This document shows, one piece after another, positions 20,454 to 27,051 of a DNA stretch of 64,000 nucleotides. The translations under genes and the position numbers were made by a program. The notes below the pieces were generated by a model, which was not told the origin of the DNA, made no database searches, and saw only the letters and a list, made by a program, of their open reading frames with translations. Origin of the DNA: a halophilic archaeon SHRA6 (GTDB taxonomy: Archaea; Halobacteriota; Halobacteria; Halobacteriales; Haloferacaceae); contig SOPS01000001.1 in the NCBI GenBank assembly GCA_005239175.1, positions 372,001 through 436,000 of the forward strand, written 5' to 3'. Each line of letters opens with the position of its first letter. The stretch's first letter is position 1.

Positions 20454-21482
20454 TCAGTCCGCCTTTGATTGGGCGATCGCCGGATCGATCCCGACTGGTT
20501 CACGCGGGAGATCGAGTGCGGACTGCAGGTCGTGTTCCTCGCCGGTTAGCAGATAGAGGATGTCTTCGGCGACAACGAGCAGCTCAGGCAGCTGGCGGAC
20601 GACGAGATACGCAATGCCCATGAGTGCGATCACCGCGCCGACCTGGCTGAGAATCCGATCGGAGACAAAAAACGACACCCGATAGGGGTTGCTGTCGCCA
20701 AAGAGGAACAGGACAACGTCGGGATACCAGTGCATGAGCTGTCGGCCCGAAACAGTGATGATGAAGATCGTCCGGAGGATGTTGAGCGCGAAGATGATCG
20801 GAATTGAGACTGCAAGCGCACGGAGCTTGCGACCGATCGGGGCTCGAACCGCAGCGATGAGTCCCGAAAAGATCGCCATGCTCCCAATGCCGGTACACGC
20901 GAGCACGACAGAGATCCGGTATCGATAGCCATCTGGGGTGCCGTCGTCGATCACCCACAGAAAGCCGGCCTGGTAGCCTTCGATGCTCTCGGTGAACTCA
21001 GGCGAGTAGCCGAGTGCAGAAATACCGACAGCGGTGAGCTGGGCGACGAACTCGATGAGGACCTGTCGCGGTTCGGGGATGTACACGCCGGCGATCGTCA
21101 TCGCCGGAATCGTCTCGAATGGGAGGTAGATGAGCCCCATCACGCCGATCGCCCGCGAGAGGATAAACAGCGTATCGCGGCCATCGTATAGTTGTTTCGC
21201 GGCGTACAGACACATTGGCAGGGCGATCAAACTGAGAAAGCCCTCCACGTAGCTTTGGTGTTCGAACGCAAAATACGGGAAGACGTTGAGCCAGAACAGC
21301 CCGAAGACGGTGAAGCCGGCGATCGACGTATAGCGGGCGGTGTCAAGGCTGCCGTTTGATCGATGCGCACGCCACTCGAAAAGCCCGGCCGCAATGAAGA
21401 GGCCGGTCGCCGTCCAGATCATCGCGTTCGCGAGCGTGCCGAAGGCAAACACCTCGCTCGCGAGCCACTCGATCGGCGTCAT
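20454..21482 (-). CDS. artA: archaeosortase A
   Basis: Encodes 342 residues from the ATG at 21482; upstream sequence in this frame is a shadow. About eight to nine transmembrane helices. The active site is recognisable: Cys196 in VLACTGIGS, Arg237 in NILRTIF and Arg276 in VSDRILSQ. The spacings 41 and 39 equal those of the catalytic triad described for Haloferax ArtA. The enzyme cleaves PGF-CTERM tails and is linked to prenyl-lipid anchoring of the substrate. At least five candidate substrates are encoded in this window: the BtuF-like protein, the S-layer protein, the two PASYYG proteins and the PGF-pre-PGF protein. Confidence 0.95.
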   Translation of the reverse strand: MTPIEWLASEVFAFGTLANAMIWTATGLFIAAGLFEWRAHRSNGSLDTARYTSIAGFTVFGLFWLNVFPYFAFEHQSYVEGFLSLIALPMCLYAAKQLYDGRDTLFILSRAIGVMGLIYLPFETIPAMTIAGVYIPEPRQVLIEFVAQLTAVGISALGYSPEFTESIEGYQAGFLWVIDDGTPDGYRYRISVVLACTGIGSMAIFSGLIAAVRAPIGRKLRALAVSIPIIFALNILRTIFIITVSGRQLMHWYPDVVLFLFGDSNPYRVSFFVSDRILSQVGAVIALMGIAYLVVRQLPELLVVAEDILYLLTGEEHDLQSALDLPREPVGIDPAIAQSKAD

Positions 21483-21612
21483 TGATAGTGTGGTGGCGAT
21501 CGAGTGATAAATCCCTTGTCGTTCCGTGTGCGGGGCGCGTCCGATCGGGAAAAAGAGACGAAAGCGTCGTTCGTACCGATGATGCAAATACGATCGCGTA
21601 CGAACGAGTAGT

Positions 21613-21909
21613 ATGGAGCACGTATCGGAGATCAAAACACGGCTTCGACAACTCAAGCCGAGATTAGAAGACTCGTATGGAGTCGACGAACTTGCCGTGT
21701 TTGGATCGTGCGCGCGAAACGAAGCAACCGAGGACAGCGATATCGACATTCTTGTTTCGTTTTCGGAGCCGATCGGGCTGTTTGATCTGATGCGACTCGA
21801 AGACGAGATTGCCACAGCACTTGGGCGTGACGTCGATCTGGTGACAGACGGATCGTTGAAGCCACGTATCGGCGAGCGTATTGCCGACGATCTTGTCTAC
21901 GTATCGTAG
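21613..21909 (+). CDS. MNT-type nucleotidyltransferase antitoxin, without HEPN partner
   Basis: Encodes 98 residues. The minimal nucleotidyltransferase motif is ELAVFGSCARNEATEDSDID, with a further acid in GRDVDLVTD. In HEPN-MNT toxin-antitoxin pairs this protein inactivates the HEPN RNase by adding nucleotides to it. A HEPN gene normally follows directly; here the next 120 bases carry no such gene and then the TnpB element begins, so the toxin is missing. It may be an orphan or act on a toxin elsewhere. It is divergent from artA. Confidence 0.8.
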   Translation: MEHVSEIKTRLRQLKPRLEDSYGVDELAVFGSCARNEATEDSDIDILVSFSEPIGLFDLMRLEDEIATALGRDVDLVTDGSLKPRIGERIADDLVYVS

Positions 21910-22032
21910 ACACGGCGGTCGATCGACACGCTGTTGCAGAGTCGAGAGTAGTGAATTCTCTTTATTTTAACAGCGCAATTGCTCGCAGTCAGCGATCGGT
22001 TACTTTCGATCGGTCAGTGAATCACCTCGGGG

Positions 22033-23379
22033 TCAAGCCCCGAGGCTTCCCGTTTCTACGACGTGACTTGCAGACACACGCTGAAAAGTAGCGGTGTCCG
22101 TAGCGTTGACGAGAGCGAAGCTCTCGTTTGCACACCAGAAACGCGTCGCGTTTCTGGGGACGGTCACAGTCTCCACGGGCGTTGATTTGGGCCATCCCAG
22201 CCCTAATTCAGAAAAGCCGCGTTTCAAGACGTTCATCGCCGTCGCAAACGCGCAGCGTTTGCTGCCCGTCAGACACGGTCTGACGACCGCGTTCGCATCC
22301 CTATCCGTTTCAAACCTGCACGAAGGGCAGGAGTGTTCCCTGACCCAGAGGGGTTTCACCGTTTCTACACCGCACGACGCACACTCTTTGGTCGTTCCTC
22401 GTGCTTCAACTTGGACGACGTGACAGCCGTACAGATCGGCCTTGTATTCGAGAAGTGTGATGAATTGTCGCCACGCCGCATCCTGTTTGTTCCGAGCGTT
22501 GTGCGACTGTTCCAACATTCCCTTCACGTTCAAGTCCTCGACGAACACAGCGTCGTACTCTCTAACCAACCACGTCGTGATTTTGTGCTGGTAGTCCAAC
22601 ACTTTCCGGCGAATCCGACGTTTGGCTTTTGCGACTTCGACTCGTTGTTTCTCGTAGTTGCTAGACCCGTGTTCTTTCCGTGAGAGTTTGCGTTGTTCGC
22701 GGCGGAGTCGCTCATACTCGTCTTCAAGATCGAGCCAATCCACGGTCTTCCCATCGCTGGTGTGAATGTAGTTCCGGATGCCGAGGTCGATCCCAATGCT
22801 GTTGCTCGCGTCGAGCGTGTCGAGTGCGGGCTTCTCGGGAACGTGTTCCTCATCAGTTTCGAGACTGAACGAGACGAACCACTCACCAGTCGTCTCCTTC
22901 TTAATCGTGACCTCGTTAATCGTGGCGTGGTCGGGAATTGGTCGGTGGTACCGGATTTTGACCCAGCCGATTTTGCTGAAGCGGACGTACACAAACCTAT
23001 CACAGCCCCTTTTTTCATCAAGGTCGAAACCGGACTGGTTGTACGTCACGCTCCGATAATCAACAGGTGCTTGCCATGTGAGCCGACCGACTTTGTAGCC
23101 TTTCTCTTTGAGTTCACGCAAGACAGTGAGATTGTGGTGGAATCGTGCGACGGTGGCTTGCGCGGCTTTCGAGTGCAGCTCACCAAATATTGGCCACCGC
23201 TGTTTCCACTTGGGAAGTTTGTTGTTTTGGTCGTACTCACTCGGCTTTTCGCCCTTGGGACTGTTCTCGTAGTCCCAACGGACGTGATTGTAGAGTTGGC
23301 GATGAACGTCAAGATGGTATTCTAGTCTGCCCGCTACCTCTTGTGTCGGGTAAGCGTGGTAGCGGTGACTGTATTCCAT
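22033..23379 (-). CDS. tnpB: TnpB (IS605 OrfB) RNA-guided endonuclease with two palindromic in-frame inserts
   Basis: Encodes 448 residues. The RuvC acids are Asp198 (GIDLGI), Glu281 (VFVEDLNVKG) and Asp361 (DRDANA). The zinc ribbon has Cys333/Cys336 and Cys351/Cys354. The expected run DRDANA...NVLKRGF is interrupted by about 17 residues (366-382, VRPCLTGSKRCAFATAM), and a second insert of about 19 residues (407-425, VPRNATRFWCANESFALVN) lies in the C-terminal tail. Each insert is encoded by two perfect palindromes (listed separately). All catalytic residues are kept. TnpB proteins are nicking/cleaving nucleases guided by an RNA derived from the element's right end, which here would include these hairpins. 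Confidence 0.9.
   Translation of the reverse strand: MEYSHRYHAYPTQEVAGRLEYHLDVHRQLYNHVRWDYENSPKGEKPSEYDQNNKLPKWKQRWPIFGELHSKAAQATVARFHHNLTVLRELKEKGYKVGRLTWQAPVDYRSVTYNQSGFDLDEKRGCDRFVYVRFSKIGWVKIRYHRPIPDHATINEVTIKKETTGEWFVSFSLETDEEHVPEKPALDTLDASNSIGIDLGIRNYIHTSDGKTVDWLDLEDEYERLRREQRKLSRKEHGSSNYEKQRVEVAKAKRRIRRKVLDYQHKITTWLVREYDAVFVEDLNVKGMLEQSHNARNKQDAAWRQFITLLEYKADLYGCHVVQVEARGTTKECASCGVETVKPLWVREHSCPSCRFETDRDANAVVRPCLTGSKRCAFATAMNVLKRGFSELGLGWPKSTPVETVTVPRNATRFWCANESFALVNATDTATFQRVSASHVVETGSLGA
22109..22157. repeat. palindrome pair inside tnpB, distal insert
   Basis: Two perfect palindromes: ACGAGAGC-GAA-GCTCTCGT (22109-22127) and CCAGAAACGCG-T-CGCGTTTCTGG (22135-22157), with seven bases between them. 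They encode most of the extra tail segment of TnpB without breaking the frame. Loops of one and three bases would give very stable hairpins in RNA or single-stranded DNA. Confidence 0.9.
22244..22284. repeat. palindrome pair inside tnpB, next to the third RuvC motif
   Basis: Two perfect palindromes: GCAAACGC-GCA-GCGTTTGC (22244-22262) and GTCAGAC-ACG-GTCTGAC (22268-22284), separated by five bases. They encode the segment inserted between DRDANA and NVLKRGF. The arrangement (two hairpins, three-base loops, short spacer) repeats that of the distal insert, although the arm sequences differ. Confidence 0.9.
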
Positions 23380-23567: not shown

Positions 23568-26456
23568 TTAGTTGTTACGGCGGGCTGCGAGCATCGCGGC
23601 ACCGATGAGCGCGATGAGCGCGACAATGACACCGAAGCCGGGCACGCCGCCCTCGTCGTCGGTCTCATCGTCGTCGGTACTGTCGTCGTCGGTACTGTCG
23701 TCGTCAGTACTGTCATCGTCGGTACTGTCGTCGTCAGTACTGTCGTCGTCAGTACTGTCGTCTTCAGAGTCGTCATCGGACACTTCTTCAACAGTCAGCG
23801 TTGCCGTCTGCTCACTGTCGTCCGTGAAGACGCCGTGCTCGTAGTCACCGGGTTCGAGGTCGCTCGTGTCGATGTCCGAGAATGTGACAGTCGTGTCCTC
23901 GCCACCGTCGAGGGTAACCTCTTCGGAGCCGAGTTCGTTGCCGTCAACCTGGAACGTGACATCCTGCGTCGCTTCCTCGTCGCCAGTGTTCTCGATCGTT
24001 GCGGAGACCTCGATCACGTCACCCTGCTCGACGGAAACGTCGGTTGGGTTGAGATCGGAGACCTCGAAGGCTGCGGGAGCAGCCTGTTCGACAACGACAC
24101 CGTCAGTCTCTGCGCTCGATGCGAGGTCAGCGCCACGGATGTCGGCGGTGAATTCGTCACCAACCTCACGCTCGCTGAAGTCGAAGGTTCCGCTGAACGT
24201 GCCGTCAGGCTGAACAACGAGGTCGCTCTCGGTCGTGCGGAAGCGAGCGTCACCCTGTCCGGCAAGGCGGATGTCGAGTTCGCTGCCAGGTGCGATGTTG
24301 GTCGTACCCGTAACGTTCTGATCTTCCTCAGCGAAGACAGTGACGACATCTTCATCGTCGACTTCCTCCGTGTCGAAGGACGCTTCGCGGTCTGCGACAC
24401 TGAACTCGGAGCCGATGACGAGGTAATCGTCCTCGAACTCGTCCTCATCTGCAGAGGTTAGAATTTCGTCATCGTCAACCTCAAGCAGGCGTTCGTCGCT
24501 CACGACGAGGTCGACAGTGAACTCGTCGCCGTCTTCAGGCGTTCCGTCGTCCCAGACAGCGCTGTCGGTCGGGAACTCGGTGAAGGTAACGTAGAGTTCG
24601 CCACCCTCGTAGATGACCTCGAAGTCATCTGCATCGAGAGCGGTGTCATCAAGAGTCGTTGGATCCTGGTTTGCACCAGCACTCTCGTCGGTTTCGATGA
24701 TTTCGATATCAACGACACCCGCCGTGAGGGCGGCTTCGAGCATTTCATCAAGATCGTCCTCACCAGTCGCGGCGAGGAAGCCACCGATACCGTCCAGTTC
24801 GATCTGGTGGACGAGTGCGTCACCGAATGCGACCGTGTCGGTCTCGGTCAGCGTACCGTCTTCGGCCGCATCAGCAACATCTTCAGCATCTTCGATATCT
24901 TCTGCATTACCCGAAGATGCGGTCCAGAGGTTCATGTCACCGGCGGTCCGCTCGTCAATAAACAGGCCACCGATTTCATCGGCATCGTCAACGAAGTCGT
25001 CGACGTTGCTCTCGTTTGCGTTATCGATCGTCGATCCACCGAGATAGATGTCGTAGTCCCCAGCATCGAGGATCGAGCTCAGTTCTTGCCGATCGTTACC
25101 CGATACCGTGTTGAGTTCGACATCAGCATCGTCTGAGGTGACGATGTCGTAGCCTCCACTGGTGTCGCCAGCGGTGTACGTGTTAAATTCAACCGTGACG
25201 GTGTCTGCGTCATCATCAACGTTGGTGATGTTGACAACAGCCTGGTAGCCATCGTTATCGAAGTTACCGATAACGAGGGTACCCTCTTCTGCACCACCGA
25301 TGATTTCGACTTCGAACTCAGCGGTGTCACCTTGAGTGACTTCAACTGTGTCTTCAACGAATTCAACATCTGCATCTTCACCTTCTTCGACAGTTATCGA
25401 GGCAGTGTCTTCACCAACGGAGTCAGTGACGTCGAATTCGAATTCGTAATCGTCGGCGTCAATGTCTGCGAAGTTTGCATCAACATCTCCATCACTGACA
25501 TCAGTGAGAAGAACACCGTCAGCAGTTTGAGAGACGTCAGCGTCGCTATCTTCGAAGATAGCAAGCAGGTCATCATTGTCGAGACCGTCGGCAGTCACCT
25601 GCACACTGTAGGTGGACCGCGTACGATCGTCGAATTCAACCGTAGTAGTTGTCTCGCCTTGATTTTCGACAGATTCGTCGTCAAACTCAGCCGAGAAGCT
25701 TGGCGCAGTTAGAGAGAAGTTTCCGACTACATCATCTGATTCGTTCACCAGTGTGTAGTCTGCTCCTGTCTCAAGATCGTCAGTCGCGAAGGACACAAAG
25801 CCACTGCTATCAGCAGTTTCTACGCCTTCGAAGACATTGTCATCTCCGTAGTCGCGGAAGAGTTCAATTTCCTCATCCGAACTGTCGCTGTCAGTTGCTT
25901 CGACGAACTGACCAGCGTAGACACGGCGGTCGTCATTAGTAACGTCGACGCCAGTGACGTTAAACGTATCTGAGCTGTTTTGCGAGCTATCGGAGTCGTT
26001 GATGTTGACTGTCACACTGCGTGCAGGACCAACGTCCGAGAGGTCGTGCGTCAACTCAGCTGTAATCGTTGCCGAGGACGTCGAGGAGGCGTTCTCTTCA
26101 AGTTCGATGATAAGATCGGTACCATCAATCTCGAAGTCGCTGACTACCACGGCAGCCTCGTTGTCAGACGAAACATCCGCTGCGTACGGGACTGCACCCG
26201 CAGCGTCTGCTTCGCTAAGATCGACAACAACTTCTTCTGTTGAGTTTGCACTAAGTTGTACATCGAACGATACATTCTGCGTGTCAGCAGATGCACCAGC
26301 GGTAACGTCGTCCGCGCTGGCATTACTGACATCGTCGGTAGCCGCAGCCGCACCGCCTGTAAAGGCGATCGGTACAGCCACCATGGATAAGACCATGATC
26401 GCAGCAAGGAACACTGCGCGTCCCTTGGTACGATAGTCTGTATTATTTCCTGTCAT
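23568..26456 (-). CDS. csg: S-layer glycoprotein with PGF-CTERM tail
   Basis: Encodes 962 residues from the ATG at 26456 (MTGNNTDYRTKGRAVFLAAI), a surface-glycoprotein-type signal ending near AAAA at about residue 37. The body is very acidic, rich in N-x-S/T glycosylation sites and made of beta-rich domains with VEEGEDADVEF-like strands, as in Haloferax and Halobacterium S-layer proteins. The C-terminus has an acidic stalk of TDDDS repeats (15-base DNA repeat, about 23676-23768), then GGVPGFGVIVALIALIGAAM and RRNN, a PGF-CTERM tail for ArtA. The downstream terminator and a leader of about 120 bases fit a major structural gene forming the cell wall lattice. Confidence 0.92.
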   Translation of the reverse strand: MTGNNTDYRTKGRAVFLAAIMVLSMVAVPIAFTGGAAAATDDVSNASADDVTAGASADTQNVSFDVQLSANSTEEVVVDLSEADAAGAVPYAADVSSDNEAAVVVSDFEIDGTDLIIELEENASSTSSATITAELTHDLSDVGPARSVTVNINDSDSSQNSSDTFNVTGVDVTNDDRRVYAGQFVEATDSDSSDEEIELFRDYGDDNVFEGVETADSSGFVSFATDDLETGADYTLVNESDDVVGNFSLTAPSFSAEFDDESVENQGETTTTVEFDDRTRSTYSVQVTADGLDNDDLLAIFEDSDADVSQTADGVLLTDVSDGDVDANFADIDADDYEFEFDVTDSVGEDTASITVEEGEDADVEFVEDTVEVTQGDTAEFEVEIIGGAEEGTLVIGNFDNDGYQAVVNITNVDDDADTVTVEFNTYTAGDTSGGYDIVTSDDADVELNTVSGNDRQELSSILDAGDYDIYLGGSTIDNANESNVDDFVDDADEIGGLFIDERTAGDMNLWTASSGNAEDIEDAEDVADAAEDGTLTETDTVAFGDALVHQIELDGIGGFLAATGEDDLDEMLEAALTAGVVDIEIIETDESAGANQDPTTLDDTALDADDFEVIYEGGELYVTFTEFPTDSAVWDDGTPEDGDEFTVDLVVSDERLLEVDDDEILTSADEDEFEDDYLVIGSEFSVADREASFDTEEVDDEDVVTVFAEEDQNVTGTTNIAPGSELDIRLAGQGDARFRTTESDLVVQPDGTFSGTFDFSEREVGDEFTADIRGADLASSAETDGVVVEQAAPAAFEVSDLNPTDVSVEQGDVIEVSATIENTGDEEATQDVTFQVDGNELGSEEVTLDGGEDTTVTFSDIDTSDLEPGDYEHGVFTDDSEQTATLTVEEVSDDDSEDDSTDDDSTDDDSTDDDSTDDDSTDDDSTDDDETDDEGGVPGFGVIVALIALIGAAMLAARRNN

Positions 26457-27051
26457 AGTTTGTGTTTGTTCTATTGTTGCCTGATGCCTCGCAGCCGCCA
26501 ACGGCACCTGGCCTCGATCGACGATCGATCGAGAACCGATCACCGCAATGCCGGCTACACGGTTTGACATCAAGCGTGCACTTCCAACATACAGTGACGT
26601 TGGTAAATACTTTGTGTAGCTGTTCGGGTATGTGAAAACCTACCAAACAAGAGGAAGAGGCCGTCTACTCCCAGATTACGAGATCTCATAACGCGGCGTT
26701 TGAGAGCCGATTGAGTGGGAAGATTAGCGGTCGATCGAAACCACAAATGTCTGCATCGCCGATCAATAAAACCGCCACATGTCAATCGGATATCCAAGAA
26801 ATCATGACGGTTTTGCCCTGCGGGCGAGTGCGACCGGGATCCACCCAGAAACCGACAAATAGGAGAAATAACCCGCCGTGCGCGGGCAATGATTTGCAGT
26901 GTGCGATCAATGATTTGCAGTCAATCGAACGCTTACAGCGACTCGATCGACAGAACGAGGAATCGACAGGCCTCCGATCGCCGGAAGAAACAATCTACAG
27001 GTATTCGATCGACGAAGATCGATGTGACCGGAATCAACCAGATGCCGACGA
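26457..27051. other. 595-bp gap: S-layer leader and promoter region
   Basis: On the minus strand a TATA-like AAGTATTTACC lies at about 26603-26613, which would start transcription near 26580 and leave a leader of about 120 bases, similar in length to known S-layer leaders. Farther upstream is a spaced direct repeat (listed separately). From 26930 to 27051 the sequence is rich in GATCGA and shows no convincing gene. Reading frames here on the plus strand are shadows. Confidence 0.5.
26887..26921. repeat. direct repeat of 14 bp spaced by two helical turns
   Basis: CAATGATTTGCAGT occurs at 26887-26900 and again, identical, at 26908-26921, so the starts are 21 bases apart. Two equal sites on the same DNA face are typical of a dimeric or tandem-binding regulator. 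The pair lies about 430 bases before the S-layer start and about 130 bases past the end of the upstream gene. A regulatory role is inference. Confidence 0.5.

Follow-up and report, generated by a model that had tools for sequence, protein, structure and literature searches.

A tnpB gene of the halophilic archaeon SHRA6 carries two short in-frame inserts, each a pair of unlike hairpins, and both very likely belong to a family of non-autonomous, very short, double-hairpin mobile elements that spans the haloarchaeal class. The gene lies in a stretch of 64,000 nucleotides (the window; contig SOPS01000001.1 of GenBank assembly GCA_005239175.1, positions 372,001 to 436,000, forward strand), and all coordinates below are counted from the first letter of this stretch. 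The family has conserved ends and covarying stems and is inserted after CG with no longer duplication of the target; exact empty sites and one recent insertion show that it is mobile, and its copies are enriched in tnpB elements and occur in frame in TnpB.

Two double hairpins within tnpB

The initial annotation of the window had placed four perfect palindromes, grouped in two pairs, within tnpB, and all four are present where predicted. The longest arm (11 bases) and the loops (1–3 bases) are as described, whereas the shortest arm measures 8 bases rather than 7; of the inserts, described as 17–19 codons each, insert 2 comprises 19 codons and insert 1 only 16. Both are in frame in an uninterrupted TnpB of 448 amino acids and, as annotated, one splits the DRDANA...NVLKRGF region (insert 1) while the other lies in the C-terminal tail (insert 2). 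The borders were fixed by deleting the segments and then aligning.

22033..23379, minus strand: tnpB, 448 amino acids, IS1341/IS605-type, intact, with both inserts in frame (Pfam, solved relatives, alignment of 18 relatives)
22240..22287, minus strand: insert 1, 48 bp, 16 codons, double hairpin with linker GGGCAG; without counterpart in the paralogue and relatives
22267..22285, minus strand: insert 1, hairpin 1, CGTCAGAC CGT GTCTGACG, arms 8, loop 3
22244..22262, minus strand: insert 1, hairpin 2, GCAAACGC TGC GCGTTTGC, arms 8, loop 3
22104..22160, minus strand: insert 2, 57 bp, 19 codons, double hairpin with linker TGTGCAA, main subfamily, peptide FWCANESFALVNATDTATFQR; without counterpart in the paralogue and relatives
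22135..22157, minus strand: insert 2, hairpin 1, CCAGAAACGCG A CGCGTTTCTGG, arms 11, loop 1
22109..22127, minus strand: insert 2, hairpin 2, ACGAGAGC TTC GCTCTCGT, arms 8, loop 3
22161..22162, minus strand: CG dinucleotide flanking insert 2 on the left; the insert itself also ends in CG, which the empty site contains once

Insert 1 adds 16 residues (VVRPCLTGSKRCAFAT, as aligned) behind DRDANA at a codon boundary, and insert 2 adds 19 residues to the C-terminal tail, a region for which the AlphaFold model was of unusably low confidence (predicted local distance difference test score <50). With thresholds of arms ≥7, loop 1–5 and gap ≤14, these are the only two adjacent hairpin pairs in the window, and ten first-order shuffles together yielded 1 pair (0.1 expected).

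Empty sites in relatives

All 18 aligned TnpB relatives lack both inserts: exactly 16 and 19 residues are missing, with the alignment unbroken on either side. These relatives include a paralogue from the same genome (L031), which is 85% identical to the window TnpB. Since exactly these residues are absent at sharp borders in 18/18 relatives, the segments are insertions in the window copy rather than ancestral sequence, and the comparison of tnpB homologues suggested in the initial annotation thus came out in favour of insertion.

The insert 2 site is also occupied in L136 and L158, and the insert 1 site in 3 of 42 distinct DNA instances, namely the window (in frame) and, occupied by relatives of insert 1, L021 and L148 (both frame-shifted). 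L148 (1350–1560) is a single TnpB that combines the frame-shifted GGGCAG-type insert at the insert 1 site with a main-type element before PVETA. The ratio of non-synonymous to synonymous substitution (dN/dS) between the window tnpB and L136, both of which carry insert 2, is 0.13, which suggests that the TnpB bearing this insert stayed under selection; the two genes were placed as sisters with weak support (58/89).

A class-wide family with covarying stems

The first further relative of insert 2 came from another genome (L021), where it lies upstream of a tnpB gene and has arms that differ in sequence but are complementary. More copies were gathered by pattern search, and a covariance model, R1, was built from five of them, insert 2 included. 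R1 matches occur in 358 of 392 haloarchaeal genomes, the best at full length and near 85 bits; insert 2, itself one of the building copies, scores 71.7 bits, and insert 1 scores 21 bits. The exact core CTGGTGTGCRAACGA is present in 136 of the 392 genomes, compared with one match for a control pattern, and among named contigs with the core the element is confined to Halobacteria. The 15-mer alone was unspecific in large collections, giving many bacterial matches, none of which R1 upheld. In a draw across the phylum, 10 of 11 genomes from the element's own order matched R1, as did, weakly, three genomes of one genus among the 69 others. These three (G432, G441 and G448; 30–38 bits) lie outside the haloarchaeal order and possibly hold distant relatives.

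Copies are carried on plasmids of Haloferax mediterranei and Natronomonas pharaonis, and Haloquadratum walsbyi J07HQW1 has 28 R1 matches. No R1 match was found in 80 tested viral contigs sharing the 15-mer or in phage records, and a viral origin was rejected on this basis; Rfam gave no credible family match. The initial annotation had offered a family of protein-coding palindromic mini-elements as one interpretation, and this is borne out by the empty sites, the presence in hundreds of genomes, the several in-frame TnpB sites and a recent insertion matched by an unoccupied copy. The genome search that it proposed recovered similar hairpin pairs elsewhere in hundreds of genomes, with in-frame copies so far only in transposon genes.

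The consensus reads, 5′ to 3′, (CG) TCC-[CCAGAA...TTCTGG]-TGTGCRA-[ACGA...TCGT]-CAACG, with a modal length of 57 bp and no terminal inverted repeat. The arms are conserved in their outer parts and vary, with compensation, in their inner parts: pairing holds for 98.4% of stem cells across 109 distinct copies, 17 of 18 pairs display double-sided compensatory change, and covariation reaches 0.427 against at most 0.05 in slid controls, the alignment having been fitted to R1. Sister subfamilies are distinguished by linkers such as TGGGCTG/GGGCAG, TTAGCAG, TTGGCWA, CTGCCAA and TGATGA. Insert 1 belongs to the GGGCAG sister subfamily and insert 2 to the main TGTGCRA subfamily, hence the unlike arms of the two inserts.

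Further arrangements were seen among these subfamilies. A double-hairpin insert with a TGATGA linker splits the loop of a tnpB right-end palindrome in L033 (480–620) and L046 (about 940–1010). Within another right-end palindrome lies the subfamily CATCACCAGAA...GGTTAGCAGTCAG...GACA (L098, 1501–1555; L025, 2694–2752; L202, 6307–6365), in which CA replaces CG at both ends. In genome G045 (L078, L129, L130, L131 and L132), members of several subfamilies are arranged in tandem or lie one inside another, which suggests that they insert into each other.

Target site, mobility and preference for tnpB elements

Target preference was assessed with 145 copies at 44 site clusters, a set in which the same cluster or the same genome may be represented several times. 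CG directly precedes the element in 131 of the 145 copies (background 10.6%) or, by cluster, in 36 of 44. The element's own end is also CG and the empty site has a single CG, with no longer target duplication seen; two readings suit this pattern, namely that CG is the target and the element has a terminal CG of its own, or that two base pairs were duplicated or served as the core of a recombination. Recent movement is recorded in Halobacterium sp. KA-4, where a transposase-like open reading frame (ORF), which, as read from its sequence, we take to be IS6-type, is broken by a copy of 59 bp (L125); the same genome holds an uninterrupted copy of this ORF that is 99% identical on both sides and lacks exactly those 59 bp.

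Some elements sit at the upstream end of tnpB or at the right-end palindrome, others at several points within TnpB, and others again where no tnpB is present. With 19 of the 44 site clusters in or ≤1 kb from TnpB (p about 1e-17 when 3% of the genome is assumed to be near tnpB; we estimate 1–3% from 11–28 tnpB matches per genome), the main habitat of the family is IS200/IS605-type elements, not genes at large. An insertion in Orc1/Cdc6, hinted at by annotation, was rejected: that element lies upstream, beside an IS200/IS605 tnpA–tnpB pair, and overlaps only the annotated start.

Coding behaviour inside TnpB

In-frame copies are found at several TnpB positions, and all three forward frames as well as reverse frames are used. 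Examples are SESTS[PEIEDFWCANES..]TPVET; PVETVTV[PRNATRFWCANESFALVN]ATDT, in the window and L136; LQYLRR[PQKSSISGVRTRRSASRQ]RRQN; and, in reverse orientation, DGV[DETRSVSFAHQNAKRSG]DDG in L066. Five of the six frames are open in 70–93% of copies, as against 46–49% of shuffled sequences. Lengths divisible by 3 are also more frequent inside TnpB (27/31) than elsewhere (73/114; Fisher p=0.0096, with shared sites counted).

The host tnpB element and its surroundings

The window tnpB product has both the OrfB/RuvC and the TNB zinc-ribbon domains of an IS200/IS605-type TnpB (Pfam OrfB_IS605, PF01385, 79.8 bits; Cas12f1-like_TNB, PF07282, 69.7 bits), and its nearest solved structures include the TnpB entries 8bf8/8ex9. 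Two features mark the 3′ end of the element.

22024..22046, minus strand: right-end palindrome of the tnpB element, CCTCGGGG CTTGA CCCCGAGG (palindrome listing and fold)
22071..22100, minus strand: covarying stem adjoining insert 2, within the 3′ portion of tnpB (fold of 9 relatives)

The stem, which has double-sided changes at some pairs and is unbroken by insert 2, is a probable guide-RNA stem. Judged by sequence reading, a 98-residue ORF just past the tnpB right end (21613–21909) resembles an MNT-like minimal nucleotidyltransferase (GSCARNEATEDSDIDILV), with no HEPN partner seen alongside. By the same kind of reading, the tnpB element seems to be bordered by an exosortase/archaeosortase-like membrane protein (20454–21485) on one side and, on the other, by a large surface glycoprotein whose tail is PGF-CTERM-like (23568–26573).

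Mechanism and alternative explanations

Movement of the elements would occur in trans, by an enzyme that recognises hairpins in single-stranded DNA. By analogy with the proposal for bacterial REPINs and RAYTs, the first candidate for this enzyme, though a tentative one, is an HUH Y1 transposase of IS200/IS605 type. With a canonical length divisible by three and five of the six frames usually open, insertion into a tolerant part of TnpB would lengthen the protein rather than break it, and such copies may thus survive selection; the hairpins would be kept for mobility and not for any role in tnpB. Quite possibly, though we stop short of favouring it, the family forms a class-wide archaeal superfamily of double-hairpin elements of 50–60 bp that has specialised on IS200/IS605-type TnpB transposons, inserts at CG dinucleotides in a few hot spots of tnpB and its ends, writes peptides into TnpBs still under selection and is moved in trans by an enzyme recognising hairpins; it would thereby be a hyperparasite of RNA-guided-nuclease transposons and a source of new protein segments in Archaea.

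Several observations weigh against parts of this interpretation. No split copies border the Y1 TnpA genes in six carrier genomes, so that neither an autonomous parent was recognised beside them nor a transposase tied to the family; and an identical dinucleotide at the two ends is also compatible with duplication of 2 bp or with the core of a serine recombinase, and hence with other classes of enzyme. The p-values are approximate, as some of the 145 copies share a cluster or a genome, and hitch-hiking on insertion sequence (IS) elements accounts for part of the copy number, since a few sites recur in many genomes. In addition, the length test leans on one recurrent TnpB site, the dN/dS value for the window and L136 also covers time preceding the insertion, and the weak sister support leaves a single origin of insert 2 likely but unproven.

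That the segments are ancestral sequence with chance GC symmetry might be entertained because haloarchaeal DNA often forms hairpins (45 hairpins in the window versus 25 in shuffles). However, the two adjacent pairs compare with 0.1 expected, hundreds of homologous copies exist, and the idea is refuted by the absence of both segments at the same borders from all aligned relatives; we regard its probability as negligible. The initial annotation had also proposed that selection keeps the hairpins as components of the TnpB guide (omega) RNA scaffold. Haloarchaeal omega RNAs arise from the tnpB 3′ region (PMC12558985), where insert 2 lies directly upstream of the covarying stem and the right-end palindrome, and the stems of the inserts themselves covary strongly. 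Folding of the 3′ region, as the annotation had advised, did reveal the covarying stem beside insert 2, but insert 2 is not part of it. Moreover, relatives with the 3′ structure intact lack the hairpins, and the same elements are found upstream of tnpB, in reversed orientation, in the unrelated transposase-like ORF and at tnpB-free sites, leaving a scaffold role unsupported and very improbable.

The remaining alternatives concern the moving enzyme and the ancestry of the elements. A serine recombinase (IS607-like) or another enzyme exchanging at a 2-bp CG core, rather than a Y1 transposase, would account for the CG that nearly every copy has at each end and that occurs a single time in the empty site, and also for the two orientations found in TnpB genes, CG being self-complementary. 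It leaves the need for two covarying hairpins unexplained, however, and no recombinase gene is linked to the elements; we consider it improbable. Slightly better placed, though still unlikely, is derivation from SMR-A of Haloquadratum walsbyi or from terminal-only PATEs, of which the elements would be a subtype or descendants. The host class, the lack of a long target duplication and the strong IS605-type preference are shared (PMC3119063), and the R1 matches in H. walsbyi J07HQW1 point the same way. In contrast, SMR-A elements are ~110 bp long with inverted terminal repeats, whereas the present elements have 57 bp, two different hairpins and no terminal inverted repeat, and terminal-only PATEs (52 bp) keep a single 22-bp palindrome. 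SMR-A was also considered as a doublet of the element and rejected: the R1 matches listed in H. walsbyi are isolated and unpaired. A separate family of mobile double-hairpin elements remains our preferred explanation.

Comparison with known systems

To our knowledge, bacteria, namely Rickettsia and other carriers of REPs, were until now the only known hosts of in-frame palindromic mini-elements. A comparable element is now seen class-wide in Archaea and, at 57 bp, is close to a minimal mobile unit. It is tied to TnpB transposons, whose RNA-guided nucleases draw wide interest, and it offers a testable route from non-coding repeats to protein sequence; the cultivable carriers H. mediterranei and N. 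pharaonis open a way to seek the mobilising enzyme. A REPIN is built from a single kind of REP hairpin, present in inverted orientations and bearing GTAG tags, and REPINs lie on either side of RAYT genes. Like REPINs and BIMEs, the haloarchaeal element has two neighbouring hairpins in one short mobile unit that is probably moved in trans, but its hairpins differ from each other and a flanked Y1 gene was not found in the six carrier genomes. As to classical MITE traits, the consensus lacks a terminal inverted repeat and a parent was not found; the CG present at either end might represent a duplication of 2 bp.

Di Nocera and colleagues described GTAG and CGTC REPs in bacteria and mentioned the in-frame Rickettsia elements; the CGTC REPs of bacterial phyla have single stems of 8–9 bp and CCA-like tails, with no dedicated transposase known (PMC3733652). 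Rickettsia palindromic elements (RPE) and CGTC REPs resemble the haloarchaeal element in being short palindromic repeats with many dispersed copies, in frame within ORFs. The latter differs in its two unlike hairpins, fixed TGTGCRA linker, TCC/CAACG ends and CG target, and in being archaeal and mainly located in IS200/IS605-type elements. The REP combination of a single stem, a GTAG or CGTC tag and a conserved tail is absent from it, and the CG of its CGTC-like start is the target dinucleotide.

Among haloarchaeal repeats, Dyall-Smith and colleagues described Haloquadratum SMR-A (HqIRS42, 43 and 55) as transposase-free elements of ~110 bp with inverted terminal repeats, mostly outside ORFs, which attack IS605-type transposons and PATEs without target duplication and whose mobilisation is enigmatic (PMC3119063). 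The present element, which bears on this unexplained observation, shares the preference for IS605-type elements (19/44 clusters, as above) but differs, by description, in its modal 57 bp, double hairpin, frequent in-frame location in TnpB and class-wide occurrence. PATEs are IS605-derived, palindromic, non-autonomous haloarchaeal elements without target duplication, of which the terminal-only form has 52 bp and one 22-bp palindrome (PMC3119063); by description they have IS605-type ends, whereas the present element has two unlike palindromes and resides inside such elements. No description of the element was found in the open literature, and HqIRS elements were compared by description only; the double-hairpin family is apparently undescribed, though an earlier account under another name is possible. 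It shares behaviour with bacterial REPs and RPE and with SMR-A, and departs from each of them in a defining feature.
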